Source: Kappaphycus alvarezii
Lineage: Eukaryota > Rhodophyta > Florideophyceae > Gigartinales > Solieriaceae
Reading direction: 5' to 3'
Length of the DNA stretch: 64,000 nucleotides
Assembly (NCBI GenBank): GCA_002205965.3
Contig: NADL03000692.1
Span: 1,054,001 to 1,118,000 of the forward strand
Shown: piece by piece, positions 1 to 62,524 of the stretch
Layout of the letters: each line of letters starts with the position of its first letter
Numbering within the stretch: position 1 is the stretch's first letter
The notes under the pieces: generated by a model
Seen by the model: the letters and a program-made list of their open reading frames with translations, nothing else
What the model was told of the DNA's origin: nothing
The model's database searches: none
Position numbers and translations under genes: made by a program

Positions 1-56
1 GTATTCGAGTTGAGAAGTATTAGGGAACCAGTCGAGGGGATTTTGTTTCTGTAATC

Positions 57-1006
57 ATGGATCTCAACGCTGCTCGTATAACGTTCACAGGGCAAGAATG
101 AAGACGTTGAGGAGTTTTTCTATACATATGTCAACGTTGTGATGCGTGAGAAGGGCGATGAAGAGAAGGCCGCAAGTATCTTTGCCTATCTTCATGATGA
201 CGCAAAGCACAAATATAAGTCCAAGTTTATCGACGGGTGGTCTCTTAACGGGAATGGGCGTAACTTCGGTGACGTATGTTAGTGGCTTGTGAAAGAGTAT
301 GCTAAGGAGGTAGAACCAGATGAGATGCCATAGAGGCCCGGCTCAACTTCGACGATTTGTTAAGCTCATTGGTGTACTTGTGTGATCTTTATGAAAAGGC
401 TGGGTTCAACGCCCAAGCCAAGTACGGAATGCTGCGTAAGGCGGCTATGGGGGATAAGCGGCTCTCCGATTTCTTCCCCCTCATCAAGGGCCCTCACACT
501 TTTGATGAGCTGAAGGGTACCATAGTAGAATTTTCAAAAATTCGGAGACGTTTCAGTCACCAAGTGAAATACCGAGGGAAACCCGTACATCTATGCCGAT
601 CGTACATCCTGAAAAGAATTATCAAAGGCCAGCCACTAGCGCAGCAGCATTGGAATCAGTCAGGAGCGATGTCAAAAACTTGGAAGAAAGGTTGGAAACC
701 CGATTCGATAATCGACTTGACATGATAACCTCGCAGTTGGAAAGCCTTACTCTTACCATTAAGAAGAACCAGTCTGGGGCCCCTAAGGCCGCAGAAGTCT
801 GTTCTTACTGTCACAAGCCTGGACACTTTGCAAATAGGTTTCCTGATAATCCACACAGAAACACTCGTTGTGGAAAGTGCGGACGTTACGGGCATCATGA
901 AAGTAACTGCTGGTCTAAAGACAACAGAAGATCAAATTTATCGGAAGCAAGGAGTGAGTCAGGACCACAGGTGAAAATTTACAAAATAGAAGGGATCAAA
1001 GGTTGA
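57..1006 (+). pseudogene. gag-like region with two zinc knuckles
   Basis: Reading starts at ATG 57, just after the leader, but the frame breaks near 100 and again near 280-340. Open pieces are 357-725 and 593-1006. The 593-1006 piece has a coiled, charged stretch and then two knuckles at about 799-915. The first has C-x2-C-x4-H but phenylalanine where the last cysteine belongs. The second, CGKCGRYGHHESNCW, is a canonical CX2CX4HX4C. Ty3 gag proteins form the particle and bind RNA through such knuckles. The second copy at 23461-23745 keeps the same layout and also lacks the last cysteine of knuckle one. The leader and start are matched in the second copy around 22863, which supports ATG 57 as the gag start. 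Confidence 0.75.
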
Positions 1007-1873
1007 CAGATGCCGGTAACGTATCCATCGCTGAAGAGATTAGTCAAGTCAATGTGACAAAAAGGGATGGGGAAGGGAACATTTTATCGAAGAAACCTAG
1101 GCTAGATTATGGAATGCTGGAGCATATCCCAGCACTTGTACCTCCTCGAACCAAGAGGTCTGATCAAGTTGTTCCAGGAGTGGGAGTCACTCCGGCCAAG
1201 AAGACGAAAAAGAGTAAGAAAGTTAAGAGTATCTCTAAGGACGTACTAGAGTATGTGAAGAGGTACAATTTGGTGGCTGAGCTTGCATCGGCCCCAACTG
1301 GGATAACGTTTGGTCAACTTTTGAGGGGCGACGCAGAGGACGCAAGAAAAGAACTCAAAAAATTATCAGGTCTAATAAGTCCGCTAAGGGTAAGAAACTG
1401 TTTCTTCAATCGGCCTCGACAGCACCAAGACGTCTTAAGCTGGTACCAGTCAAAGTATTGGGTATGAAAACCAGGCTCTCTTCGATTCGGGTGCTGTTCC
1501 AAACCTCATTTCAGAAACTTTGGTGACAGATCTAGGTCTCGACATTACTCCAACGACTCGAAAAATAACTGTAGCGGATGGAACCGTCTCAAAATGCATG
1601 GGCACTGTTGACAATGTTTCCGTGTTCTTTGGGGACTCTAAAGTTGATGTAGACTTTCTTGTCATGCCTGATCTCCCTTTCGATGCAATCATTGGCTGCC
1701 CTACCATGGAAAGACTAGGGACATGCATTGACTTGGGCAATCAAATGGTTTCAGTTAATATTGACGGCAGAACCGTGAAGATGCCCCTGGATTTCGACAA
1801 AAGCACGCATCCTGAAGATTTAAAAGAAACGGACAGTGAAGATTTCACTTCTAGCTATGACAGCGAAGATTAG
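1003..1873 (+). pseudogene. Retropepsin-type protease region of pol, frameshifted
   Basis: Three frames are used in turn. A basic, lysine-rich linker is open from 1003 in one frame, a second frame is readable at about 1370-1470, and the protease core is in a third frame to the stop at 1873. The core carries ALFDSGAVPNLIS (about 1484-1522), the D-S-G aspartic protease signature followed by the hydrophobic turn. The flap and later strand follow, then the I-I-G-C-P-T-M-E-R-L motif near 1690-1725. In the decayed copy (24200-24530) the linker and DSG-equivalent segment run in a single frame. That places copy-1 frameshifts near 1340-1380 and 1470. This family of enzymes cleaves the polyprotein as a dimer. 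Confidence 0.75.
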
Positions 1874-1911
1874 GAACCAACGAACACTTTCGGAAGTGGA
1901 AAAGGGTACCC

Positions 1912-2409
1912 TTGGGGGTAATAAACATGGCATGGGACGATTATGATTCTGGGTTTGAAACAGATGACGACTGGAATTCTAGGATAAGTTTGAAACCCGA
2001 ATATGTTTCTTTTTGCGATGATATCGAATCAAAGGACAGAATTCGGAGCATGAAAGAAGATTACCTTTGCAAAGAAAATAAGAATACGTCGAATTCCATA
2101 TATGAAGATGTGAGCACGACGGAAGAGGTCCTTCAAAATATTGAGGTTGAGAATCAAGAAGAAAAAGGGCGCCAAATGGCAGAAATTCAAGGAAAAGTGC
2201 AGCACCTTCCCGCCGCCGCCTCACTGAAAATATCCAACATGTTAACATCTTCCGAAGTAATTGCATGGAGTGTATCAGATTTAAGACAAGCAAGTGTACC
2301 GGTTACCACTCGTTCGAACTTACCGACACTCAACCGATTTACCACAAGCCTAGACGTCAACCGCCAAAATATGACCAATTTATCTCAGAAAATGTTACAA
2401 GTACGCTGA
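1912..2409 (+). pseudogene. Acidic spacer between protease and reverse transcriptase
   Basis: Open frame rich in D, E and S between the protease stop and the RT. Its first part, to about residue 110, is an acidic spacer with no recognised domain. From about 2265 the real coding frame appears to shift to the one carrying the RT N-terminus, so the tail of this frame is out of register. The equivalent interval in the decayed copy (24540-25650) is longer and unreadable. I see no catalytic motif here. Confidence 0.5.
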
Positions 2410-3080
2410 AAAATGATATTATTCGACCAGTTTCATCCCCATGGTCGTTTCCAGTTGTGGTCGCACCAAAGAAGGATGGAAAGCTGCGTTTTTGCGTCGA
2501 TTACCGACAACTGAACCAGAGAATGATACCCGATCGATTTCCGATTCCGAACATGGAGGAGATCCTCGAGGACCTGAAGGATGGGAGATATTTCACTCAA
2601 TTGACCTTTACAATGGCTATTGGCAGATTCCATTGGATGAAAAATGTAAGGAAAAAACAACCTTTGCCAGCAAAGTTTGTACGTTCAGGTTCGAAGTGAT
2701 GCCTTTTGGTCTCATGAATGCACCAGCTACATTCCAAAGAATGATGAACGAGGTTTTGAAAGGACTTCCATTCGCAATAGTCTATATCGATGATGTCGTC
2801 ATATTCTCAGAAACATTGGATCAGCACATCTCGCACGTCAGGACAGTTGTGGAGAGGATATCGGAATATAGCTTGAAAATTAAGTTGAGCAAATGCTTCT
2901 TTGCGAAAACTTCTATCCAATTACTCGGTCATATCGTCGACCAAGAGGGAATTAGAGTGGATCCAGAGAAAACGAAAAAAATAAAGTTGGCACCAAGGCC
3001 CGCTTCAAAGACGGAGGTCCGAAGCTTCTTAGACTGGCCTCATATTACAGAAGATTTATCAAAGATTTCGCCAAAACTGC
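2265..3080 (+). pseudogene. Ty3/gypsy reverse transcriptase, two or three frames
   Basis: The N-terminal fingers read in one frame to about 2610, with FPVVVAPKKDGKLRFCVDYR (about 2448-2507), the hallmark start of Ty3-type RTs. The frame then shifts. The palm continues from about 2595 with DLYNGYWQI (motif A), MPFGLMNAPATFQRMM (motif B) and YIDDVVIF (motif C, YIDD at 2783-2794). The thumb side has LLGHIVDQEGIRVDPEK. Another shift occurs near 3030-3060 before the connection to RNase H. Catalytic aspartates of motifs A and C are present, so the domain was active before the frameshifts. It would copy element RNA into cDNA in cytoplasmic particles. Confidence 0.9.
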
Positions 3081-3600
3081 AGCACCGTTACATGCCAGCA
3101 CTACGAAGAACGGAAAATTTTACTGGAACAAGGAAATGGAAACTGCATTTCAGGAGCTTAAAGATAAGCTATGTGTCCCCCAGTTCTCATGTACCCAGAT
3201 TTCAAGAGACCATTCGTTGTGGAGACAGATGCCTCAGAACGGTCTTTGGGTGCCGTTTTGTCCCAAAAAGATGAAAACGGAAGACTACACCCTGTTCAAT
3301 TCGCAAGCCGAACTCTGAATGATGCGGAAAATAGATACTCAGTCTGCGAGAAAGAAGCGCTAGCTGTCGTCTTCGCGCTGAAAAAGTTTCGCGTATACCT
3401 TTTATCACTCGAGAAATTTGTCTTGATAACTGATCACCAGGCACTTAAGACAGCATTCCAAAAGAAGGATGTATATCACCGCTTGGCCCGATGGCTCGAC
3501 ATTTTCGCAGAATATCGGTTTGAAATTGTGTATAGACCCGGACGCAATAATCAGCCTGCCTATTACCTATCCCGCTTGAGGGATCCACTGAGTCCAAATG
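3060..3600 (+). pseudogene. RNase H domain of Ty3-like pol
   Basis: From 3171 a single frame runs to 4106 and covers the RNase H and the integrase zinc finger. RNase H signatures are VVETDASERSLGAVLSQ (first catalytic D), the glutamate region YSVCEKEALAVVFALKKF, and LITDHQAL (second D). The tail reads IVYRPGRNNQPAYYLSRL, close to the usual Y-x-P-G-x-x-N-x-x-A-D-x-L-S-R; the D position is Y here, which would damage the last catalytic acid. The stretch 3060-3170, joining RT to RNase H, is in a different frame. Confidence 0.85.
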
Positions 3601-3639
3601 AAAAGGCTTCGGAGGACATCGTCGGAGTCGCCGAGTTGC

Positions 3640-4480
3640 AGTTGCCGAACGATAACGAGTACGAAGCTAATATTCACGGACTGATCAAATTCCTCGATGG
3701 ACTAGAAATGAGAAAGGTTGATCTTGAACACAGAAATTGGGTACGCAGGAATCAAAAAGCTTTTACATTGTGGAATGGGAATCTCTTCCGGCACACTAAA
3801 GCCAGTCCCCGACTAGTGGCCCCTTTGAAAGAAAGAATGAAGATCTTGAGGACTTTCCATGATGAGCTAGGGCATTGGGATCTCGAAACAACCAAAAAAT
3901 TCGTAACTGAGAGATTCTGGTGGCCCGGTATCCATAAGGACGTCTATAATTTCGTGAAAAGCTGCGACAACTGCCAAAAATTCACTACAATACGGAAGTA
4001 TAAGACAACTCTAAGTTTTCCAGTTTCCGGTCTCTTTGAAACCTTCTCAATTGACTTTGCGGGCCCGTTCAAGGAAACCTCTTCCGGAAAAAATATCTCC
4101 TTATAGGGGTGGAACATCTTACTGGATAGCCAATAGCAGTTGCAGTTGAGGAGGCAAATGCTGAGGTGGTACTGAGATTCATCGAAAAAGAAATAATTGA
4201 ACCGTTTGGTCTTCCGAAAAGGATAATCTCGGATAACGCCCTTTGTTTTACTGCAACTTTACAGCTTCGTTTTTTGGACGAGAAAGTGATTCAGCTGAAG
4301 ACCGTTCTCGCATACGCTCCTATGTCCAACGGGAAAGCTGAGAGGATGGTTGGAACCATTAAACGAGCAATATCGAAAACTGTGTCGGAGAATAAAATCC
4401 AGTGGGAAGATGCCTTACAAAAGTACTATACGGCTATCGTCGAAGAAGAGGAAGAAATGGACGCTCACCATTCGAGCTAA
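3640..4480 (+). pseudogene. Integrase zinc finger and DDE core, frameshifted
   Basis: The HHCC finger is at about 3858-3975: H-x4-H in HDELGHWDLE and C-x2-C in CDNCQKF. The core begins FSIDFAGPF (first D, about 4047-4073), has the second D in ISDNALCF (about 4223-4246) and the glutamate in NGKAERMVGTIKRA (about 4328-4369). The frame changes near 4090-4106 and a TAG near 4125-4130 sits where relatives have a tryptophan after T-G, so it looks like a TGG to TAG mutation. Integrase inserts the cDNA; this copy would need more than one repair to work. Confidence 0.85.
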
Positions 4481-5964
4481 TATACGGAAGGGCTCCTAGA
4501 ATGTTACAGAGAGACATGGAAACAAATATTATCGATGAAGAGAGTAGGGAAGTTGAGCTACTGGCCACCGAAGGCTGGAGATCACACCGCGCGCTAGCAC
4601 AGACAAGAAATAAGGATGCAGAAACTGCAGTCAGAACCTTTTCAGTTGGCTCTAAAGTACTTGTAGTACATGGAAAAGCAATGCAGCAGGCTGTGAAGTG
4701 GCCGGCCTTCCAAACCAAGTACTCGAATCCTTGCATCGTCACGGAGGAAAGACACCCGCACTATCAGCTCTGTTCAAGCTCAGGGAAGAGATCAAGGAGG
4801 GCTATCCATGCACGTCGTCTGGTCCCTTATCATCAGAGGCCTGAAGAATTCCTTCTCACACAGGACTATGCGCAACCACGGGGCATACTCATCTTTAATT
4901 ATAGAATGATTCCTATGGGAGGAAAAAGGGCCTGGGAATGGATCATTTCGATTACGCGGGACTTCTACGAACTCCACGTAATCATCCATTTCTACACTAA
5001 TATATGCCTATGTTTTCGTACGTTGAACGGACCATTGCTACCTGAAGAAGATTTCCGACTATTAATAAGAGTTCTATTTTCATTCCAAAACGGAAGGTTC
5101 ACGGAAGCAGGTCCAGAGTTTGTGGAGGTAATATATCATTACTCTATAGGAAGATATGGAATGGTAGCTGCTGGAGACTTGTCGCAAACATATCTGAATA
5201 TTATCCGTCCAATTTACGTATTTCTCAAGAACAACCAAGACGTGCGACTGACAGGTTACGCCTTACCCCCGGATATGGTGTACAGACTGGTCCCGTATCC
5301 TCTATGGGAACCTTACGTTTCTCCGCCACAAATTGGGAACGTTGGAGGCGGCGAGGATCCTCCTGAAGCAGTGATGATGACCAGAGGAGGACCTTCAGGA
5401 TACAACAACCCGCCCAGAAGAGGTTCCGGTCGTCCCCTGAGAGGACCTCGTGCAGGTCCCAGTACGTCAGGAGCTGGTCGCGGCCATTCATCGGGACCGT
5501 CCACCACAACTTCATCTCTAGCTCTCCTTCACAACCATGCACAGCATACAGTCGGAAGAAGAAGATTATCTTTTTGGCTGCGCAATATCTCCGAGGATGC
5601 GAACGATGCGCAGGTCATTTCTTATTTCATGATAAGCATCTGTTTATGTTTTAGGGCGCTACATGGACCGCACTTATCTTACGAAGATTCGTTCTTGATG
5701 ATGCGCGTCTTCTTTTATTATCGGCATCCATTCCTCCGGCATCTTCCAGAAGAGTTTGCATATCACATATACTTTTTCACTCTTGGAAGATTCGGAAGAG
5801 TCACGGAAGAAGAATGTATTCAACCCCACCTCGATGTTATCAAACCAATATATGAGGCTATGCTACAAAGTGAGGTACCAGTAATGCGAACCTACTTTTT
5901 AGAACATCATATTGGTAATCAGTTGCATCCGTACCCGTTAAGAGACCACATATTTTATCAATAA
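4402..5964 (+). CDS. Integrase C-terminus (GPF/Y-like) fused to a tandemly duplicated unknown domain
   Basis: Longest open frame of copy 1: 520 codons, ending TAA at 5962-5964. Residues 1-25 are the end of the integrase core and 25-35 contain SPFELIYGRAP. Residues about 80-145 look like the GPF/Y module of Ty3 integrases (FSVGSKVLVVHGK, a P-C-I-V-T step and an R-A-I-H-A-R-R-L-V-P-Y end). Residues about 190-308 and 403-519 are two copies of one domain, sharing ICLCFR-x-L-x-GP-x-L, an E-D pair, an R-V-x-F segment, P-E-F, G-R-[YF]-G, L-x-[VI]-I-[RK]-P-I-Y and a closing PYPL. Between them (about 309-375) is a G/P/R/S-rich linker. I do not recognise the domain. It sits where other Ty3 elements carry a chromodomain, but does not resemble one. 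The decayed copy keeps the linker and second repeat near 26930-27480. The first Met codon lies inside the integrase, so it is not the true start of translation. Confidence 0.75.
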   Translation: MGRCLTKVLYGYRRRRGRNGRSPFELIYGRAPRMLQRDMETNIIDEESREVELLATEGWRSHRALAQTRNKDAETAVRTFSVGSKVLVVHGKAMQQAVKWPAFQTKYSNPCIVTEERHPHYQLCSSSGKRSRRAIHARRLVPYHQRPEEFLLTQDYAQPRGILIFNYRMIPMGGKRAWEWIISITRDFYELHVIIHFYTNICLCFRTLNGPLLPEEDFRLLIRVLFSFQNGRFTEAGPEFVEVIYHYSIGRYGMVAAGDLSQTYLNIIRPIYVFLKNNQDVRLTGYALPPDMVYRLVPYPLWEPYVSPPQIGNVGGGEDPPEAVMMTRGGPSGYNNPPRRGSGRPLRGPRAGPSTSGAGRGHSSGPSTTTSSLALLHNHAQHTVGRRRLSFWLRNISEDANDAQVISYFMISICLCFRALHGPHLSYEDSFLMMRVFFYYRHPFLRHLPEEFAYHIYFFTLGRFGRVTEEECIQPHLDVIKPIYEAMLQSEVPVMRTYFLEHHIGNQLHPYPLRDHIFYQ

Positions 5965-6021
5965 GACAGCAACCACTAACGGAAACAGAAGAAGAGCAGT
6001 GACGAGCCGGGACGTTCGTCT

Positions 6022-6035
6022 TGAGCGGGAGGGCG
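6022..6035 (+). other. Polypurine tract of Ty3-like copy 1
   Basis: TGAGCGGGAGGGCG lies directly before the TG that opens the 3' LTR. Polypurine tracts prime plus-strand DNA synthesis in LTR elements and abut the 3' LTR. The decayed copy has a matching tract (ACCGGGAGCTAG) directly before the TGTTGG at 27566. That agreement is the main evidence for where the LTR starts. Confidence 0.65.
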
Positions 6036-6436
6036 TGATGTGCGCAAATTCGCACACGAAAAAATCTAGATGAGGACCTTAATTGTATACAGTATTGGAA
6101 CTGGGAAGATATTTTTACAGTTTTTGAATTTGCAAGATATATTTATTTGGGTGAGTGTGGCAAAATCATCGTTTGATTTTTTTTTAGGACACGCTGTCAC
6201 AGTGGATGTCAGTACAGTTCTAGGTTGTGGGTGATACTACGAGTGACTCTGAAAGGTCTATATAATGGCCACATCAATTCCCACCCCTGGCCGATGGGTG
6301 GCTGGCATGGGTATGGCACCTAGATATTTACCTTGAGGAAATATCTTCTAATGGTCTCTCTGGTTTACAAGATTCCCGTGAATGCGTTTTATGGTATTTA
6401 GTATGTTTGATTGAGACTTTAGGACTAGGCGAAAAG

Positions 6437-6450
6437 TCTATATAAGCTGA
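6437..6450 (+). promoter_or_regulatory. LTR TATA box
   Basis: TCTATATAAGCTGA within the LTR. The same TATA box context recurs in the LTRs at 8346-8361 (minus), 36588-36600 (plus), 38930-38945 (minus) and 62209-62222 (plus). Repeated preservation inside otherwise diverged LTRs fits the U3 promoter that starts genomic RNA. Confidence 0.6.
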
Positions 6451-6519
6451 GTAAAGTGCTTCCTCCTTGAGAGGTCAAGCAAGCTGGCAGACAACTTCAG
6501 GTCAAGCTCCGAGTAGTAA

Positions 6520-6538
6520 GAAGTTGAGAGTCAACTTC
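6520..6538 (+). other. Conserved inverted repeat in the LTR
   Basis: GAAGTTGA-GAG-TCAACTTC: eight-base perfect arms around three bases, about 75 bp downstream of the TATA box, so probably in R or U5. The solo LTR at 8045-9708 has the same hairpin (minus strand, near 8258-8276), and the LTRs near 36680 and 62295 have slightly mismatched versions. As RNA it would form a short stem-loop; function unknown. Confidence 0.5.
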
Positions 6539-6759
6539 AGACCCAAGAAAACTTTTTCCTAAGCTGGTCGCAGAGCATCAGTGGTAGACGCTGCCCCTTT
6601 TATGCTTGCTTGTAGGCCTCTCAACTCTCTCCCATATACACTCCTTTTTATTTGTTCAACTATACCACGGTAGCACTTTTGTCGCTCGCAACACCTCCGT
6701 CTTGGGGTAGTTGGTTCTAAGTATCTCTTCTCCCGAAGATTTACCCCTATCAATGTCCA

Positions 6760-7338: not shown

Positions 7339-8044
7339 ATGTCCTTTTCTGCGTGGAAAGTCGCTCTGGCTCTCCGTCTCGGCATCCCGTTATTCTCTGG
7401 ATCTACTAGCTGTGCGTTCTATTCCCGCCGCTCGGCCGACGTCGCACCCGTCTTAGATCCAAGCGACCAACACGCGTTGACCTGCAAATACAAAGACGGA
7501 ATGAGTCGTCGTCATCACATCCTCCGCAACGTTCTCGCCGGCCTCTGTAAGGAAGTTGGGATAGTCGCCCTCGTCGAACATCCACTCCTCTACCAGGTTC
7601 CCGACCCATCTGGGCATTCGGAGTCCCCCCCGCTACGAATGGACATTTACATACCCGCTGCATACGGGCTTCACAGTACCGATATCGCCGTCGACGTTAC
7701 TGTTGCCCACCCCTCCGCACGCCGCCACATTTCGCCAAGTACGGTTACCGCAGGCGCTGCCGCAACACTCGCAGAGCGCGACAAACATCGTCATTACAGC
7801 ACTTACTGCGACCAAAACGATATCCTCCTCTCCCCCGTCCGGATTGATATCTATGGCGCCTTGGACGACGACGGCAAGGGTTTTTTCCGCCGCCTTGCTT
7901 CCTCCGCTGCTTCCCGTCGCGGTTCCTCCCCTCAACAGGAGCTCCGCGACTTCGTTACCCGTTTTGCATTTAGTCTCCAAATAATGCAGGTGCGACAGGT
8001 TTCTACCCGCCGCCTGCATCCGTACTTAATTTATGAATACCCTC
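7339..8044 (+). pseudogene. Family-B non-LTR retrotransposon, RLE-domain C-terminus (B1)
   Basis: Open frame from 7339. Order: WKVALALRLGIPLF, a CKYKDGMSRRHH segment with C and H residues that may bind zinc, then LRNVLAGLCKEVGIVALVEH, a D-I-Y-I-P step, DIAVDVTVAHPSARR, and A-E-R-D-K-H-R-H-Y. The R/K...D...D-V-T-V arrangement is that of restriction-like endonuclease domains found after the RT in several site-specific and related non-LTR families. The reading frame ends in the family-B tail, which is cut after GAATACCCTC by a solo LTR (8045-9708) and resumes at 9709. The last ~40 codons of the nominal frame (to 8163) therefore lie in the LTR and are not part of this protein. Confidence 0.75.
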
Positions 8045-8487
8045 TGATAGGGGTAAATCGTCGGGAGAAGAGGTATTCAGAATCAACCACCCCAAGAAGG
8101 AGGTGTTGCAAGCGACAAAAGTGCTACCGTGGTAGAGTTGAACGAACGAAAAGGAGTGTATAGGGACGACAGTTGAATGGGCTACAAGCAAGTATGGAAG
8201 GGGCAGGGTCTACCACCTATGCTTAGTGACTAAGGTAAAATAAATGCTTCTTGGGTCTGAAGTTGACTCTCAACTTCCTAACTATTTGGGACTGAGCTTG
8301 AAGCTGTCTGCCAACTTGCTTGACCTCTCAAGGAGGAAGCACTTTACTCAGCTTATATAGACTTTTGGCTAACCCTAAAGTCCGAACAAAACTACAGAAG
8401 GTACCAGGAAATGCATACAAACAATTTGTGTGGATGATATACTCTAAACAAAAGATACTTAAGAAACTAACAATCAATGAGGTCCTC

Positions 8488-9246
8488 TTATTTCCCATTC
8501 TCTAAATCAGATCCAAACAACTCCTCTAAAATATCCATGCTGTCCAAGCAGTCCCCACAAATATCTGCGAATGGCTCACAGCTCTCTATTCCCTCCTGGG
8601 AGATATCTAAACTACTAAAGATATCTCCATCCGGTTCCAGCGTCGGCACCACTTGATCCATACTCTCCAGTCCAGGCCCCACCAGTACAACACTTTCCAT
8701 GCCCCCATTTCCCTCATCCAACTCGTCCTCGTCCTCGTCATCCTCCTCTTCCTCCTCTTCCTCCTCATCCTCATCCTCATCTTCATCCTCATCCTCATCC
8801 TCCTCTTCATCCTCATCCTCATCCTCCTCTTCATCCTCATCCTCATCCTCCTCTTCATCCTCATCCTCATCCTCCTCTTCATCCTCATCCTCATCCTCCT
8901 CTTCATCCTCATCCTCATCCTCCTCTTCATCCTCATCCTCATCCTCCTCTTCATCCTCATCCTCCCCGTCCTCCTCGTTATTAACCTCATAGACCAATCC
9001 AGGGGCTACCCACTCCTCAAAGGTCTCCCCAGCTCCCTCCTCGATGTCCCACTCCTGACCCTCAGGTACCTCCTCGGCCTCATCCTCGACGAAGAGCTTG
9101 CGGACGAATTCTATTATCTTCTTCTTAGTCTGCCGTCTCAGGTAGTCGTCTGCATCCGTCGGGCCATATACTGCGAGCGCAAGGCCGTTTAAGGGGCGAG
9201 AGGGGCGGTTTTTAGTGATGGGGGCGGAGGGGCGAAGGTTGCTCAT
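8488..9246 (-). CDS. LTR-encoded acidic protein, 252 aa, intact
   Basis: Starts at ATG 9246 and ends TAA just before 8488. Residues 1-75 are basic to neutral with LNGLAL and T-D-A-D-D-Y-L-R-R. Residues about 95-180 are almost pure D/E, built from a 24-bp repeat. The C-terminus (about 205-248) has SLDISQEGIESCE and SMDILEELFGSDLE. Relatives in other LTRs: 28170-28492 (plus), 35975-36505 (plus), 39045-39483 (minus), 61551-62080 (plus), and a remnant at 6324-6360. These share the N-terminal L-A-L step, a D-[RQ]-E-R-[VA]-x-[EK]-[CW] segment and the C-terminal L-G-S-D-L-E. I recognise no domain. The frame lies wholly inside U3 of the LTR, on the sense strand. A TATTTAAA at about 9349-9362 could be its own promoter. 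Function unknown; an acidic chromatin-binding or histone-mimicking role is only a guess. Confidence 0.7.
   Translation of the reverse strand: MSNLRPSAPITKNRPSRPLNGLALAVYGPTDADDYLRRQTKKKIIEFVRKLFVEDEAEEVPEGQEWDIEEGAGETFEEWVAPGLVYEVNNEEDGEDEDEEEDEDEDEEEDEDEDEEEDEDEDEEEDEDEDEEEDEDEDEEEDEDEDEEEDEDEDEDEDEDEEEEEEEEDDEDEDELDEGNGGMESVVLVGPGLESMDQVVPTLEPDGDIFSSLDISQEGIESCEPFADICGDCLDSMDILEELFGSDLENGK
8775..8965. repeat. 24-bp coding minisatellite, about 7 to 8 units
   Basis: The plus strand repeats TCCTCCTCTTCATCCTCATC plus CTCA with a strict 24-bp period. On the minus strand each unit encodes the eight residues EDEDEDEE. The block is flanked by more irregular CCT/TCC sequence to about 8735. Copies of this ORF in other LTRs lack the array, so it expanded in this copy. 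Long serine or leucine frames on the plus strand across it are artefacts of the repeat. Confidence 0.9.
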
Positions 9247-9708
9247 TTTGGTTGTAAATGATTGTAGACGGAGGATAGAGGGTGTTTTGGGTGTGTTGGG
9301 GAAGAGGAGTGATGAGTAAAATGATCAGGGACGTTTGAAACTTGGAATAAAAAGGTTTAAATAGGCTCCCGGGGCAGGTTCTATCGATTAGGAATCGGTA
9401 AAATAAATCTGCAAGGGATTTTGTAGTAGTGCATTTGCGCCCTTTTTCTCAAAAAAAAACGAATTTGGAGGAGGAGGTAAGGAAAAAGGGAAAAAGAACT
9501 TGATTCGGGATCGATTCAGAGGGGTGGATACAGTATAAAAATATCTAGATAAAATGGAAGTAAATTTGGGGAGGACCGCGGTAATGATAAGCGAGGTTCA
9601 GGGAGGACGAGGAAGGACCGGAACTATAAGCAAATTTGGACAAGGAGAGGTAGTACAGTAAACTATAGGCCTGTAGATGACGGCGACAAAAAAAATCTGC
9701 GCCTAACA

Positions 9709-9764
9709 CCCTCCGCACGCTTCTGTGCGACATTGTACAACCAATAAAGATTTACCACCACAGG
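9709..9764 (+). repeat. Tail B, second half, after the solo LTR
   Basis: CCCTCCGCACGCTTCTGTGC followed by ACATTGTACAACC, an AATAAAG poly(A)-like signal and ACCACCACAGG. This completes the 3' end of the family-B fragment interrupted at 8044. Other tail-B copies are at 12907-12970 (plus), 14498-14564 (minus) and 15135-15205 (minus). Confidence 0.75.
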
Positions 9765-9765
9765 A

Positions 9766-10814
9766 AACTGGCTGGAGGCTTGCCAACAGGCACGCCGCAT
9801 TAGACATCGCTGCCGCTGTCGCATGACGCTGTGTTGAGACTTGTTTGACTTTTGCGTAGGTCTCCCTTGCCCTCATAGCGACGTTGCGTGCGACGTCGGT
9901 TAACAACGCGTGGGCGTGCGGGTGCCTTCTTCCGACGGTAGAGATAGGGACGCGCACCAGCCTACTTCTGGCGGAAGACGCGATAAAGGACTCGTATCTT
10001 CTGTGTTTCGCCGTTCTTGCTGCGTTGCGAGAGGTGAGTGGGTTGAAAGTCCTTATCCTGTCCGAGGGCGCTAGGGGGTTTACGAAGGTGACATCGAAGA
10101 AGTCTGTTCCGCCAGTTCGTCCTATTGCGCGAATATCAGAGCTTGTGCGGTGGACCCCTTCTCGCGGCTCGATGACTGGATGTCGCGCAGCTTTCCCGAG
10201 ATCGCTCGCCAATAAACGAACCTGACGGTCGTGTCTTCGCGTCCTTTCGCCCCCGTGCAAGCAGTGCAACAGATGGCCGCCGAAACAGTCGAGATTTTCG
10301 GGGCAGTTCCGCTTGGGACATGTTGTTTCCGGAGGGAAAAGCGGGACTTGGCAATAGTATTGGAACCATATTGAGAATTCTCTTGATTCAATGCTAGTCT
10401 TAAGGCCCGGAGATGGGGTGCAGTACACCCAATCTTTCGCCCCGGGAGCCCCATAGAGGCACGGAAGGCTAGCCGTCTGTTGTCTCCCACATCGATCTCT
10501 TCCTGCACCCGCTCGTGGATGGCGTGCGATAGTGTCTTCTGTGATGGTGTTTTGCTTGAGCAGAGGGCACTCAAGGGAGAATCCTGGACTGGGAGCAAGA
10601 GAGGGACCAAATCTGGTGCGCCTCCACGATGTCTCGGTACGTTGCGAGATCCGTAATTGTCGCTGGAAGGAGGGCTGCCACACATCCTGTTGGACGCTGC
10701 GCTGGAGGCGAGGAAGGCTTGAGCTGCAATTGACTTCGCCGAAGTCAGTCCAATTCCCAGTGATGGCATCTTGGCGGTGATCGGTTTCACAAGCAACTGC
10801 AGTTCTCGAAACAT
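9766..10814 (-). pseudogene. Family-A linker, zinc-binding segment and restriction-like endonuclease
   Basis: Two overlapping frames, 10122-10814 and 9703-10683. The first opens with LGIGLTSAKSIAAQAFLAS, typical of the region after the thumb in this RT group. The second has a C/H cluster, CPENLDCFGGHLLHCLHG, then RHDRQVRLLASDLGKAARH, R-T-S-S-D-I-R and FFDVTFVNPLAP. The D...D-V-T spacing is the RLE active-site pattern; R2-type proteins likewise place a zinc knuckle just before the RLE. The C-terminal block (FNPLTSRNAARTAKHRRYES onward) is conserved in all family-A fragments here. The last ~25 codons of the nominal frame are family-B tail read backwards. Confidence 0.75.
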
Positions 10815-27565: not shown

Positions 27566-28500
27566 TGTTGGTACAAACTCATTCCTTTCCGCAAATTCTT
27601 GTTTCCCTTCACCCTTACAACTACCCTTCACCTATTCTTCTTTAATCAATTTCTATTAATTATTATTTTAAAAAAAGAAATACTGAAAGTATGTTTACTA
27701 TATGAATCTATAAGGAAGAATGACGCTTTATTGTTTGAAGAAAAGTCCGCACTACACAGGACCTCGGGTTCTGCTAGACGGACGACTCCGGGCAATGGCT
27801 GAACCGATTGCCCACTCAAGCGAAAAAGGGACCGGAAGAAAACTCCACCAACTGAACCGGGGATTCAGAAGGCTTAAAAAACTCCCGCTGTAAGCACATG
27901 AATCTATAATAACTGTGTGACTCCATTTTCAAATTTATGTTTGAAGATTTGGTCCTCCATTTTCGAAGAGAAACCTCTCTACTTTTTATAGGCTTCATCC
28001 TATGAATTTATTACGATATTTTTTCAAAAATACTCTCTATTTTGCCCCGATTTAAGGTATTTACAAATCCGCAGCATCGTTTCGCACTTTTTTTTTCGAC
28101 CAAGGCGTTAAAAATTAATGAATACATTCACCTAGTGCTATTGAAACCTCGTTGAAAAGCACCCATAATATCAACCATTCCATCTGCTCATCCCCACCTT
28201 TTCGTGCTTCTCGTCGACGTGAATCATCTCTGCCAGCCACTCAGCATCGCGAGAGGAACCAGAGTCCCGAGTAACATCAGCTTCCTGGCTTTAATGGCCA
28301 TGTCACAACTGACTAAGAGAAATTTCTCAGTAGGATGGACCGGGAACGCGCCCGAAAGTGGGTTCATCGTCCGTTCGTGGAGAATTCAAAGGATTTACAA
28401 GAGGATGAGGCGAATTTGGAGGTCTTTGAAGAAATTTCATCGGCTTGTAAGGCAACTCAGGTCCAATCATTCCAGCTTAAGCAGCTGTAGGTAAATTGGA
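27566..28500 (+). repeat. 3' LTR of copy 2 with acidic-ORF remnant, 3' end not found
   Basis: Starts TGTTGGTACA after a polypurine-like ACCGGGAGCTAG. The upstream part (28020-28110) aligns with 61380-61460 in another LTR. The acidic-ORF relative lies at 28170-28492, including M-D-R-E-R-A-R-K-W-V-H-R. The TATA-box portion that should follow was not found, so the LTR is truncated or too diverged. Confidence 0.55.
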
Positions 28501-35899: not shown

Positions 35900-36909
35900 C
35901 TTTCAACAACTACACCAGCTCACATACACAGCCCCTCAGTTTCCACCAGCACGACCCACCTCCTTCCGTCTTTTACCATAAAAAATCAAACAAGGCCCAG
36001 CGTCGCATCAGCAGCCTAGCTTTGATGGATAACGGGCCATCGACCTATGATGTGCATGTCAGTAGGGTGGAGCGGTAGCTCTTTCAGGAGTGGGTCCGTG
36101 GGCACTTAGTAGAGGACCCAGAGGAAGCGGGGTAGTCGGAGGGGTCAGAGGAGAACGAGGTGGATGTGGAGGTATCCTAGAATGAAAAGCACTTTGCATT
36201 CCCGTAGAAGCAGATGGTTTATAACCGTTAGGGGTTGCTAAGGGGAAGTGAGAGGAGACTGAAGGCATTACGTAATTTTGGACTCCTCGGATGTGGATGT
36301 AGCGGAAATTGAGAGTTGCGATGATTACCTATACTATCTTGATATTTCAGATGATTCCATCTATAATTCTGAGTCATTCAAGGGAATTTGGAGGGATTCT
36401 ATTAGAAGTGTGAATTTTTTGCAGTACTTTCTTGGTTCTGACCTCGAGGATTGTAATTCTGAGTACCAGAGATACATATTTATTATGAAAGTATCTTATG
36501 GTTAGTCTTTATCAGCCACGTGACTTGTTTTGGGGCATCCTATTGTAATGAGCACGTTTATTTGAAATTTTAGGTCTAACGGAAAAGTCTATATAAGCTT
36601 AGTAAACTTCTTCGAGCTTGGATAGATCAACTAAGTTGCTAGGCAACCTCAAACTAACTCCCAAATAATTAGGAAGCTGAGAGTAAACTTCGTACCCAGG
36701 AAACGATTCTCTTACGCTGGTCACAGACCAGAGGTGATAATGAACCCTTCCTCTGCAATACTCGCCTATATCATCTTGAAGTATTGTCCTTACCTACCTC
36801 TTTTTTTTCGCTCAACTACACCATGGTAATACTTTTTGCCTCTTGTAACACCTCCCTCCTGGAAGAATTTCTTCTGAGGATCGCTTCACCTGATGATTTA
36901 TCCCTATCA
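35900..36909 (+). repeat. LTR of the Ty3-like family (L4), 5' edge unknown
   Basis: Ends TTTATCCCTATCA at 36909. The TATA box is at 36590-36597 and the hairpin relative at about 36670-36690. The 5' edge is unclear; homology to other LTRs is felt from about 35590 onward. No TSD found (right flank GTCTC). It faces the solo LTR at 38626-39917 in inverted orientation 1.7 kb away. Confidence 0.65.
35975..36505 (+). pseudogene. LTR-encoded acidic protein, broken copy
   Basis: N-terminal piece near 35990-36110 reads K-A-Q-R-R-I-S-S-L-A-L and E-W-V-R-G-H-L-V-E-D-P-E-E, with a TAG at 36077. The C-terminal frame 36278-36505 reads MDSSDVDVAEIESC, LDISDDSIYNSESF and F-L-G-S-D-L-E-D. This matches the intact ORF at 8488-9246 at both ends; the D/E tract is not expanded here. 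Confidence 0.6.
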
Positions 36910-38625: not shown

Positions 38626-39917
38626 TGATAGGGGTAAATCGCCGGAAGAAGAGATACCCAGAACCCGCTACCCCAAAAAGGAGGTGTTGCAAGTGACAAA
38701 AGTGCTGCCGTGGTATAGTTGGGCGGACAGAATGATTTAGGTAAGGGCAAAAGTTGAAAGGGCTATAAGCGGGTATAAAAGGGGCAGGATCTAGCACCAA
38801 TGCTCTGCGACTAGCGTAGTAAACAGGGTTTTGGGTCTGAAGTTGATTACTAACTTACTAACTACTTGGGACTTGAGGTTATCTGCCAACATGCTTTCCC
38901 TCTCAAAGAGGAGCAGTTATCTCAGCTTATATGGGCTTTTTATTAACCGTAAATCCTCAATACTGTATACCAAATACCATAAAATGTACTAGAACAAATC
39001 ATGCGGACGATAGAAACTAGTGATAAGATACTCTATAGTAAATATCTACATTTTATCCTCAAAATCGTCATTTCTAAGATCTACACCAAAAAACTCCTCT
39101 AAAATATCCATACCCCCAATAAATTCCCCTCAAATTCCCCCGAACGGCTCAGAATGATAGATGACCTCATGAGACATATCAAGATCCTCCAATCCTTCCT
39201 CGCGACCTTAGCATGCGCATCAACCCCCTGAGTCCGAGATCACTGTGACGCTCTCACTCTCCGAACTTTCGGCACCCACCTCATCCTCCTTTGCCTCCTC
39301 CGTCTCATCCGCGAAATTATGACGAAAACACTCCTGAACACGTTCCTGGTCCATCTTGCGGTAGTAGTCGTCGAAGTCCGTCGGCTCATGCTGAAGCAAA
39401 GCCAGACCGTTGATATAGCTTGGCCCCGGGTGGGCTTTCTGATGGTAGATGTGGGAGTGTTGGTCTTTTTTGAGGGAGGACAAGTGGCTAATAGCTCACT
39501 CTTTTGATAGTCCGAAAAAGACGCTGGGGCGGCCCTGGACGGTTTGAAATAGGGCCAGCAGTCATATATATCCAGGCCCAATGAGTAATAAAATTAGCGA
39601 AAATTGATATTTCAATTGAGTATTACTTGTAACGGTGTTCATAGAGTCAAGTTTATCGGGTAATTCCATGTGTAAAAGAACCTCGACCGTATGTGAAGAT
39701 ATTCAGATTCGTATACTGCAATATACCCTCAAAGGATCTTGAACAATTTTCTGGAGAGGAAGGGAGTGAGTAGATATTGCTTCACAGAAAAAGGAAAGAG
39801 GGAAATGAAGAAGATAAACTAAGATTTTTGTCCCGTAGGCGAGAACGAAATGAATAGAAATGCCTAAGAATATTTTTTCCAAAAAGAAGGCAGATGTCTC
39901 GTTTTTCTCGTATAACA
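38626..39917 (-). mobile_element. Solo LTR (1292 bp) of the Ty3-like family in A3
   Basis: Plus-strand ends TGATAGGGGT and TATAACA. TSD CTTTA (38621-38625) and CTTTG (39918-39922), one mismatch. Removing it rejoins the family-A codons N-A-A-R-N-A-K to the Q-R-R-Y-Q-S-F segment, as in the uninterrupted copy at 6930. The sense strand is minus; it carries the acidic-ORF relative at 39045-39483. Confidence 0.85.
39045..39483 (-). pseudogene. LTR-encoded acidic protein, truncated copy
   Basis: The frame from 39483 is open for 87 codons: I-N-G-L-A-L, E-P-T-D-F-D-D-Y-Y-R-K-M, DQERVQECFRHNFADE, then an S/E-rich end with V-T-V-I-S-D-S. After a stop the C-terminal block reappears at about 39112-39050 as M-D-I-L-E-E-F-F-G-V-D-L. 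The order equals that of the intact ORF. V-x-[VI]-I-S-D-S resembles a SUMO-interaction motif, on pattern alone. Confidence 0.6.
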
Positions 39918-45207: not shown

Positions 45208-45650
45208 TGTTATATTAGGGATAGATCTCCCTAGAATGATATTCCCAGGGCCAATTATCCAAAGATGGAGGTGTTGCAAGCGAGAAGAGTGCTACTGAAG
45301 TATGATTGTGGGAATGAGAAGAGACAAACCAGGACGGGGCGCCGAGTGGCTACAAAGGAGTAAAGAATGAGCAGCTTCTGCCATCTACGCTGAGGGACTA
45401 GTGTTGAATAATTGTTTCTTAGAGTGGAAGCAGACTTTCAACCTCTGAATCATCTGGCCCTGTATTTGAAGTTGTCTCCCAATTTTTTTGCCCTTTCCTG
45501 GCGAAAGCAGTCTGCCCAGCTCATCTATACTTTTTTCGCAAACCCCAAAGTATCAACCAAATATACTAAATACTATAAAATTCATTCAAAAGAATCGTGC
45601 GGACGAGATCGACCAGAGGAAAATGTTATCAAAATAAGTATCTAGATGCA
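45208..45650 (-). repeat. LTR remnant (L6) of the Ty3-like family
   Basis: Begins TGTTATATTAGGGATAGATC (compare TGATAGGGGTAAATC) and continues through GGAGGTGTTGCAAGCGA and the damaged TATA segment near 45525. The upstream U3 match extends to about 45640. No acidic ORF seen. The frame 45686-46120 beyond it has no recognisable motif, and 46120-46690 is empty. Confidence 0.6.
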
Positions 45651-61228: not shown

Positions 61229-62524
61229 CCCCGCACGAATAAAATTTTCACTGTACAATTCAATTTTCTATTTCATCTATGAGGATTGTGGTCATCTTTT
61301 TTCAAAAAAAAACATTTCCACTCGTGGTACGCTTCGTCTTCCAAGTATAGTTCCGATATTTCACCAACCAGATTTCTTATTTTGCCCTGATTGTGTGAAA
61401 AATCAAATCTGCGTAATTGCTTCGCAATTTATTTCAGCCAGGGCTGTGAAAATTTTCGAGGACATCGCCTTATTTGAAGTTCGACCTTAACGTTATTAAA
61501 TCAAAACACCTGCCGTGAACCAACCCATTGGCTCATTCCACTAGTGCCAACATGAGCAACCTGCGCCCGTCCCTCACCATCTAAAAATCATCCAGAGCCC
61601 GTCGTACCCTAACTTCCCTTGCCTTCATGGCTATTAGACCAGCTGACTGCATTTTTTATAAAATAGGAGAATGGACCGGCAACACGCTCCGAAGTGGGTG
61701 CCGTCACTGCATGGAGGAGGCAGAGTAGGGCGTAGAGGAAGAGGAGACAATGGATGAATTACAAGAGGAGGAGGTTGAGACAGATATGGATTGATTGGAA
61801 GGTGAACAAGTCTAGATGGATCTCTGGGAGTCACTGGTTTAAAACGATAGGGAAGCTGCTATGAAAAATGGAGGACGAAGTGAGGGAGTAATCTTCATTT
61901 CTGACTCCCCTCATGGGAATGAGGTGGAGGCTAAATGTCGTGAGGAGTTAGTGGAGTGTCCAAATATTTCCGACAAGGCTGTCTATTATTCTGGGCCGTT
62001 CGAAGTAAAACTGAGGGGACAGAATTGGGGCTACGGATATGTTGGAGGAATCTATTAGCTCTGATCTCGAGGACTGAGATTTTAAGGTACAAATATGGAT
62101 ATTTATTTTCATAGTATCCGTTGTTAGTCTTTGTCATTCAACGAATATATTTAGTGCTCATTGCGTTACTTAATATGCTTGTTTGCGACTTTAGGGTTAG
62201 CCAAAAAGTCTATATAAGCTGAGAGACAGCTTCCTCTTGTGGAGGACAAGCAAGTTGGAAGGAAACTTCAAAGACACGCCCATGTTGTCTAAAAGTTGAA
62301 AGTCAACTTATGGTATGAGAAAAATTTATTCAACGCTAGCTCCTGAACATAGATGGTAGACCGTGCCACTTCTACACTGCCTTGTAGGCTCTCGGTCTCC
62401 ATATATTTTCTATCCCTTCTTGTCCCTACAACCATACTTCTGTAGCACTTTTGTGGCTTACATCGCCTCCGTCTGGGTGAAACTAGAGCTGAGAATATCA
62501 TACTCCACATATCTATTCCTATCG
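61229..62524 (+). repeat. LTR of the Ty3-like family (L5)
   Basis: The right end CTATTCCTATCG (CA mutated to CG) is at 62524. The TATA box is at 62211-62218 and the hairpin relative at about 62292. CCCCG at 61229-61233 and at 62525-62529 may be a TSD, but the left LTR end TG is not visible. A fragment resembling the same LTR core (ACTATGGTAGCACATTTG) recurs at 62568. Confidence 0.6.
61551..62080 (+). pseudogene. LTR-encoded acidic protein, broken copy
   Basis: ATG at 61551 with M-S-N-L-R-P-S, identical to the first residues of the intact ORF at 9246, then a TAA. The next segments read R-R-T-L-T-S-L-A-F-M and M-D-R-Q-H-A-P-K-W-V. The 61861-62058 frame has V-I-F-I-S-D-S-P-H-G. The C-terminus D-M-L-E-E-S-I-S-S-D-L-E-D is at 62039-62077. 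The shared start supports ATG 9246 as the true start in the intact copy. Confidence 0.65.

Follow-up and report, generated by a model that had tools for sequence, protein, structure and literature searches.

Sequence evidence for a selected, recombining and optional protein gene in the U3 region of a Ty3-like LTR family in Kappaphycus alvarezii

The U3 region of a Ty3-like LTR family in Kappaphycus alvarezii was found, as judged from comparison of its copies, to hold a small protein gene that is selected, recombining and optional. Hundreds of relatives of its ORF occur in at least four lineages (A/B, C, D and E), some of them intact in A, B, D and E, and codon changes between these LTR lineages are those of an ORF under purifying selection as protein. 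The point of departure was a solo LTR in the window, i.e. the whole stretch of 64,000 nucleotides that was analysed.

The solo LTR and its reading frame

The solo LTR occupies 1664 bp (8045-9708, minus strand, 5' end at 9708 and 3' end at 8045), and the TG..CA ends (TGTTAGGC..CCCTATCA) and the perfect CCCTC target-site duplication (8040-8044 and 9709-9713) on which it had been recognised are both present. An exact 5-bp duplication was seen in 21 of 86 LTR rows, some LTRs standing twice in that set. In a full-length relative the PPT (..CCGGGGGG) ends directly before the TGTTAGGC of the 3' LTR, and the CCCTATCA of the 5' LTR has the PBS (TTTGGTACTCTTG..) directly after it; hence the sense strand of 8045-9708 is minus, the plus orientation is excluded, and the 252-aa ORF is located in U3. 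Paired LTRs flanking an internal region with PBS and PPT mark the family as LTR retrotransposons. Two ORFs at 7339-8163 and 9703-10683, lacking a Pfam match, flank the solo LTR and look like the end part of a non-LTR reverse transcriptase of the CRE/R2 kind; by eye, similar pieces seem to be repeated at about 11.6-12.9 kb and 40-41.5 kb.

The original prediction of a complete 252-codon sense-strand ORF upstream of the LTR TATA box was borne out: the A-type ORF runs on the minus strand from the ATG at 9246 to a stop ending at 8488, recurs in the genome, and is followed downstream by TATATAA (8353-8359, minus), which was taken as marking the U3 end and is also found in an ORF-less LTR at about 6440. 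The ATG is preceded, at a distance of 117 bp, by a candidate ORF promoter, TATTTAAA (9356-9363, minus). Most A and D copies carry the ORF behind such a TATA-like box of its own, and one LTR, even a solo one, comprises TATA, ORF and R-U5. Of the A/B copies 64 of 75, and of the D copies 17 of 20, have the box at a similar place, the likeness of A and D promoters reflecting a recent common U3; the B copies examined have TACTTAAA or similar where A has TATTTAAA. A 25-mer spanning TATTTAAA has 619 exact copies in the genome (301 + 318), the reversed control none. Among 20 copies picked by hand from 100 listed matches, all 20 of the CCCC variant, recognisable ORF pieces followed downstream in 19, L139 having out-of-frame ones only; L143, L146 and L152 are open to the conserved end, as may be L141, whose start is shifted. 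In a further set of 19 loci, most of whose stretches begin too near the ATG to include it, TATTTAAA was visible in L099 and L107.

Three parts can be distinguished in the protein. The N-terminal domain (residues 1-60; 9067-9246, minus) is net basic, has the core GPTDxDDYxRR...FVRxxF and is exchangeable between copies; the acidic tract (residues 93-175; 8722-8970, minus) is an in-frame EDEDEEED-type repeat that varies in length from copy to copy; and the C-terminal motif SMDILEELFGSDLEN (8497-8541, minus) is the most constrained segment, for which a helix is predicted at low confidence. Residues 1-53 carry a net charge of +4 to +9 in each of 16 aligned A, B, D and E proteins, against net 0 in L099 and +1 in the fragment L109, while the remainder is net -38 to -117 in all but the fragment L025. 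The C-terminal 39-aa window is net -7 to -13 with 6-11 W/F/Y/L in 17 of 18 proteins, the odd one out again being L025. D proteins, of about 168 aa, are without the long ED repeat, and no long hydrophobic stretch was seen by eye. Of the structure prediction proposed at the outset, the C-terminal helix emerged from both AlphaFold2 runs, at low confidence: with 19 and 18 rows the mean pLDDT was poor (51.3 and 49.1), and both models place low-confidence helices at about 32-38, at 41-53 and at DILEELF and leave the remainder mostly unstructured.

Relatives outside the genome were sought with word-seeded protein searches, by which distant relatives can be missed. A profile of 18 members returned none at E<=0.1 from 5.8 billion proteins (7984 candidates scored), and the 69 candidates obtained with the N-terminal third of the window ORF included none at E<=1. 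A PDB search gave none at E<=1, IMG/VR 19 pattern matches of which none is a relative, and Rfam no match in the window. A Pfam scan of the 18 members yielded weak matches only (best E 0.019); Presenilin, offered for the window ORF at 14.2 bits against a cut-off of 34.3, looks like an artefact of the acidic tract, as do similar Pfam matches.

Copies, lineages and exchange of parts

A Ty3-like element whose LTRs lack the ORF fills 1-6752 (plus strand), its 5' LTR (in L090) lying just upstream of the window and being 98% identical to the 3' LTR of about 717 bp (6036-6752, plus); ATGTC flanks the element on both sides. The order of its Pfam domains, RVT_1, RT_RNaseH and Integrase_H2C2, places it with the Ty3-like elements (Metaviridae). 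The top-ranked relatives of pol are metagenome proteins reaching 53-54% identity; among the named ones Chondrus crispus stands at rank 21 with 46% identity over 70%, the plant proteins placed higher having a coverage of only 37-44%, which makes a red-algal host probable. Between pol and PPT the element has an extra ORF. In the window (4402-5964, plus) its frame continues from pol and is without a Pfam match; in L040 (974-2005, minus) it has 343 aa and consists of a domain present in two diverged copies, which are 31% identical over 128 aa (E 8e-22).

LTR 6036-6752 and the solo LTR have some 375 bp of their 3' part in common, at 82%. The scrap of the ORF that had been proposed there was not recovered, the LTR being ORF-less and the sole protein match at chance level (E 4.4) and on the other strand. 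Of the broken ORF relatives predicted elsewhere in the window, two gave clear tblastn pieces, namely the old LTR copy at 35900-36909 (plus) and the old solo LTR at 38626-39917 (minus), which served as C-lineage query, and the old copy at 61229-62524 (plus) matched weakly (N-part, E 0.005-0.04). In the 3' LTR part, where 498-591 columns could be aligned, their DNA identities to the window LTR are 66.7%, 71.2% and 67.5%, respectively. The fourth, 27566-28500 (plus), remained at chance level in tblastn with the ORF (E 0.5-2.6) and showed neither a clear match to the window LTR nor an R-U5 match; it is probably a truncated U3 relative, its identity with the copies at 61, 36 and 38 kb being 58-61% and, for the first of these, 60% across 572 columns. 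A further R-U5 remnant of the LTR superfamily lies at 45216-45642 (66% identity).

The genome searched comprises 336 Mb in 884 contigs, and the ORF recurs across it in many LTRs, as had been anticipated. With the window LTR at least 56 matched pieces were obtained (40 of 6007 candidates scored), at least 28 of them full-length LTRs at 88-100%, window LTR included; with the N-terminal third as protein, all 150 scored of 6567 candidates matched. At least 72 pieces matched the C lineage through the 38626 copy (40 of 3150 candidates scored), and at least 153 the D lineage through L109 (150 of 9712 scored). What is called E-type is an N-part seen in L025 and in many further LTRs. The 5' U3 of B-type LTRs (L073-L081) is distinct, differing by 27-32% where alignable. 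Neighbouring A LTRs are 99.2-100% identical in nine comparisons (one being the same LTR twice), and differences of 0-0.8% indicate that the family moved recently. Four D-type ORFs stand at intervals of about 10.36 kb in G000:C782:16827-48399, where CCATC on both sides of LTR L131 suggests tandem duplication of a unit with a solo LTR.

Fifty-three distinct LTRs were placed, 12 loci of the N-third search in the other orientation being excluded. Eighteen are open from the start to the conserved end, L018 and L035 among them with a frame-shifted middle; the other 35 are not, 27 breaking in or after the acidic repeat (past residue 90) and eight earlier, of which L025 has an ATG. A shortened C-run common to 7 of 74 sequences may be a homopolymer assembly error. 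Thirteen of 20 D copies are without gap or early stop against L110, a share biased upward since these were chosen from the best matches.

Several copies are mosaics. Most of L025 diverges by 0-10% from the window LTR, but LTR positions 401-640, the N-part of the ORF, by 23-45%. In L146 (E-type) 31 of 42 silent sites of residues 1-60 are changed against the window (dN/dS 0.09, p 1e-9), and its last 80 codons are identical to the window's in DNA. In a rough DNA alignment the divergence of A and D is 7-12% ahead of the ORF, 18-45% over its first part, 30-38% between the C-part and a point just beyond the stop, and 5-18% thereafter. The first 292 bp beside one D-type LTR match the A-type internal region at 98%, and window 1-5397 shares 93% identity with the internal region of an A-type, ORF-bearing element; A-type and ORF-less LTRs thus occur, as their sequences indicate, on one gag-pol backbone, and D-type LTRs too as far as read. 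Mosaic divergence on a common backbone argues that U3 types, and the N- and C-parts of the ORF, recombine between copies. From the sharing of a backbone by A-type and ORF-less LTRs, and from the 35 copies not open and the seven with the shortened C-run, the ORF seems not to be needed in cis. The ORF-less type is just as young and abundant, all 40 scored copies of its U3 (of 1407 candidates) lying at 97% or more, which points the same way.

Selection on the reading frame

Across copies dN/dS is not near 1 in the N-terminal third, and open frames exist in many of them. Against the window ORF this third gave 0.15-0.23 for L025, L073, L074, L076, L077 and L081 (p 3.3e-4 to 4e-8) and 0.43 for L071 (p 0.14). 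In the wrong-frame control on these seven pairs it gave 1.5-5.6 in the +1 and 0.8-1.9 in the +2 frame; the antisense frame facing the wobble positions scored 0.31-0.46, as is expected when the sense frame is constrained, though for L071 this lies below the sense value. The seven rows belong to a larger dN/dS set, whose remaining B rows gave 0.20-0.28 (N); all nine B-type rows together lie at 0.15-0.28 in the N- and 0.31-0.49 in the C-terminal third. Since the B rows have common ancestry, the independent contrasts are few: A-B, A-E (L025) and A/B-C/D.

Selection in the C-terminal third is weak and not clearly frame-specific. There, dN/dS was 0.31-0.51 in six pairs, with p<0.05 in two (L076, 0.018; L074, 0.048), L025 shows only two changes within this third, and some wrong frames score as low as the true one or lower (two of them for L077: 0.43 and 0.37 vs 0.48). 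The more distant contrasts were made on codon pairs from protein alignments, which lean to matching residues, and gave 41-45% aa identity of A/B with L099 and L109 (p 2e-4 to 8e-12). Between A/B and C/D the last 15 residues (SMDILEELFGSDLE) keep 80-93% identity with most silent sites changed; for A vs D, 5 of 7 silent and 2 of 37 nonsilent sites of the C-terminal motif are changed (p 3.7e-4). Of the two conserved ends put forward originally, the C-terminal motif is thus kept as protein, whereas at the start MSNLRPSAPITK A and D agree in DNA too, so that recent exchange explains it: silent changes amount to 4.5 of 19 in codons 1-24 and come near saturation in codons 25-148 (e.g. 18.6 of 22). 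The central D-x-E-R segment holds for the D-type (DRERVREWVRR) and not for the A-type of the window (TKKKIIEFVRK). Past selection on the protein, claimed on the strength of these motifs, is upheld by the frame-specific N-terminal dN/dS and the C-terminal motif.

The comparison was made between lineages because the young A copies gave no usable dN/dS by themselves (0.35 in the N- and 1.0 in the C-terminal third, on 3 and 2 shared changes), the former value being put down largely to the mosaic L025. Changes within D gave 0.67 overall and, when only private changes were counted, 0.66 (p 0.013 against equality), and such weak constraint within young copies is expected from decay after insertion. 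Other comparisons gave 0.75 for the whole ORF of L076 vs L077, and, against the window, 1.14 for the last 80 codons of L152 and 0.46 (N) and 1.54 (C) for L072. Values of 0.07-0.21 (N) in L014, L084, L085 and L089 rest on 4-6 silent changes, L082, L083 and L086-L088 have zero silent changes in the N-terminal third, and the old window copies show 0.58-0.60 (N) and 0.28-0.48 (C).

Possible function and known systems

Reading function from composition and short motifs, we infer a trans-acting regulator in which an acidic linker joins a basic N-domain to an activation-like C-terminal helix, and consider the chances of this about even. The U3-internal promoter would make a short mRNA ending in R-U5, and its protein would regulate transcription or chromatin of the element in trans, the basic domain lending target specificity, the acidic tract acting as a flexible, disordered linker, and the DILEELF helix as an acidic-hydrophobic, activation-type motif that may recruit host machinery; ORF-less and broken copies could use the protein in trans. 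A wider version is more tentative, namely that each LTR might be a self-contained regulatory gene, with swappable N-domains on a near-invariant activation motif, in a system of producers and users linked by trans-complementation.

Alternatively, the acidic protein might counter host chromatin silencing, as an anti-silencing or SUMO-pathway factor, which we think rather unlikely. Acidic stretches of known chaperones bind histones. All 20 D copies have xIVISDSS or a near variant (in 16 of them exactly EGVIVISDSSD), and VIVISD occurs in both L099 and L109; beside acidic residues, as in these C/D proteins, we take this to be of the SUMO-interaction-like motif class. However, the pattern is absent from the seven full-length A and B proteins scanned and was not noticed by eye in E-type frames, so SUMO interaction cannot be the common function. 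The position, mid-protein in L110-L129, L109 and L099, holds SVVLVGPG or similar in A/B types.

An accessory protein of the virion or of integration targeting, binding histones or integrase and non-transcriptional, is improbable: the long acidic tract would suit such binding, and A-type LTRs have one backbone in common with D-type LTRs over the part read, but the ORF-less U3 is widely spread, in the window on a 93% identical backbone, and no sequence feature indicates particle association. Somewhat less credible again is a selfish passenger that inserted into U3, either as a separate element or as a host gene captured there, and spreads with the LTR while bringing it no benefit. It would accord with an optional ORF exchanged among lineages and with the existence of ORF-less U3, yet boundaries of an inserted element were not noticed inside U3 in an unsystematic look, and purifying selection needs some benefit in source copies. 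That there is no protein gene at all, the frame being held open by the in-frame acidic repeat and conserved as RNA or DNA, is very improbable: the tract is microsatellite-like and open in several frames, and some wrong frames of the C-terminal third match the true one, but the six significant pairs separate the true frame from +1 and +2 in the N-terminal third, outside the repeat, the C-terminal amino acids are kept while silent sites change, and residues 1-60 of L146 contradict it as well.

To our knowledge, proteins wholly inside an LTR are known chiefly from MMTV. The present family, for which relatives were not found, combines in a Ty3-like U3 selection on protein, a promoter-like box and domain swapping. 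On the wider version given above, even a solo LTR would be a working gene. The family makes it testable whether retrotransposons outside animals have acquired a regulator driven from a promoter of its own, and whether solo LTRs, usually regarded as dead DNA, still supply a trans-acting protein. Masking LTRs as noncoding can hide genes.

In the titles and abstract beginnings of the open-access papers listed no LTR-encoded retrotransposon protein was recognised, and 'LTR ORF' in PMC12037069 means pol frames. MMTV sag has its entire ORF in U3, one copy per LTR, and is an accessory, type II membrane protein made from a singly spliced mRNA (PMC12789967). Like sag, the whole ORF described here is placed in U3 and is accessory, neither gag nor pol; unlike it, the U3 protein is acidic, apparently disordered and part of a Ty3-like element. 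Lentiviral nef, also accessory, has a coding sequence overlapping the U3 of the 3' LTR (PMC12789967) and lies only partly within U3. Foamy-virus Tas, an early regulator that activates LTR transcription, is driven by a second, internal promoter towards the 3' end of env (PMC12789967); the likeness may be one of logic, a candidate regulator with its own promoter-like box, which here would lie inside U3 and not in env. The profile search described above found no sequence homology to sag, nef or Tas, and membership of the U3 protein in the sag or Tas group is not supported. The aORFs of plant LTR retrotransposons are extra genes, often of unknown function, in otherwise ordinary elements (PMC7264820); wording for ORFs inside the LTR or U3 has 0 occurrences in that paper, and the plant aORFs are sited between pol and the 3' LTR, whereas the ORF of the present family lies in U3 itself.
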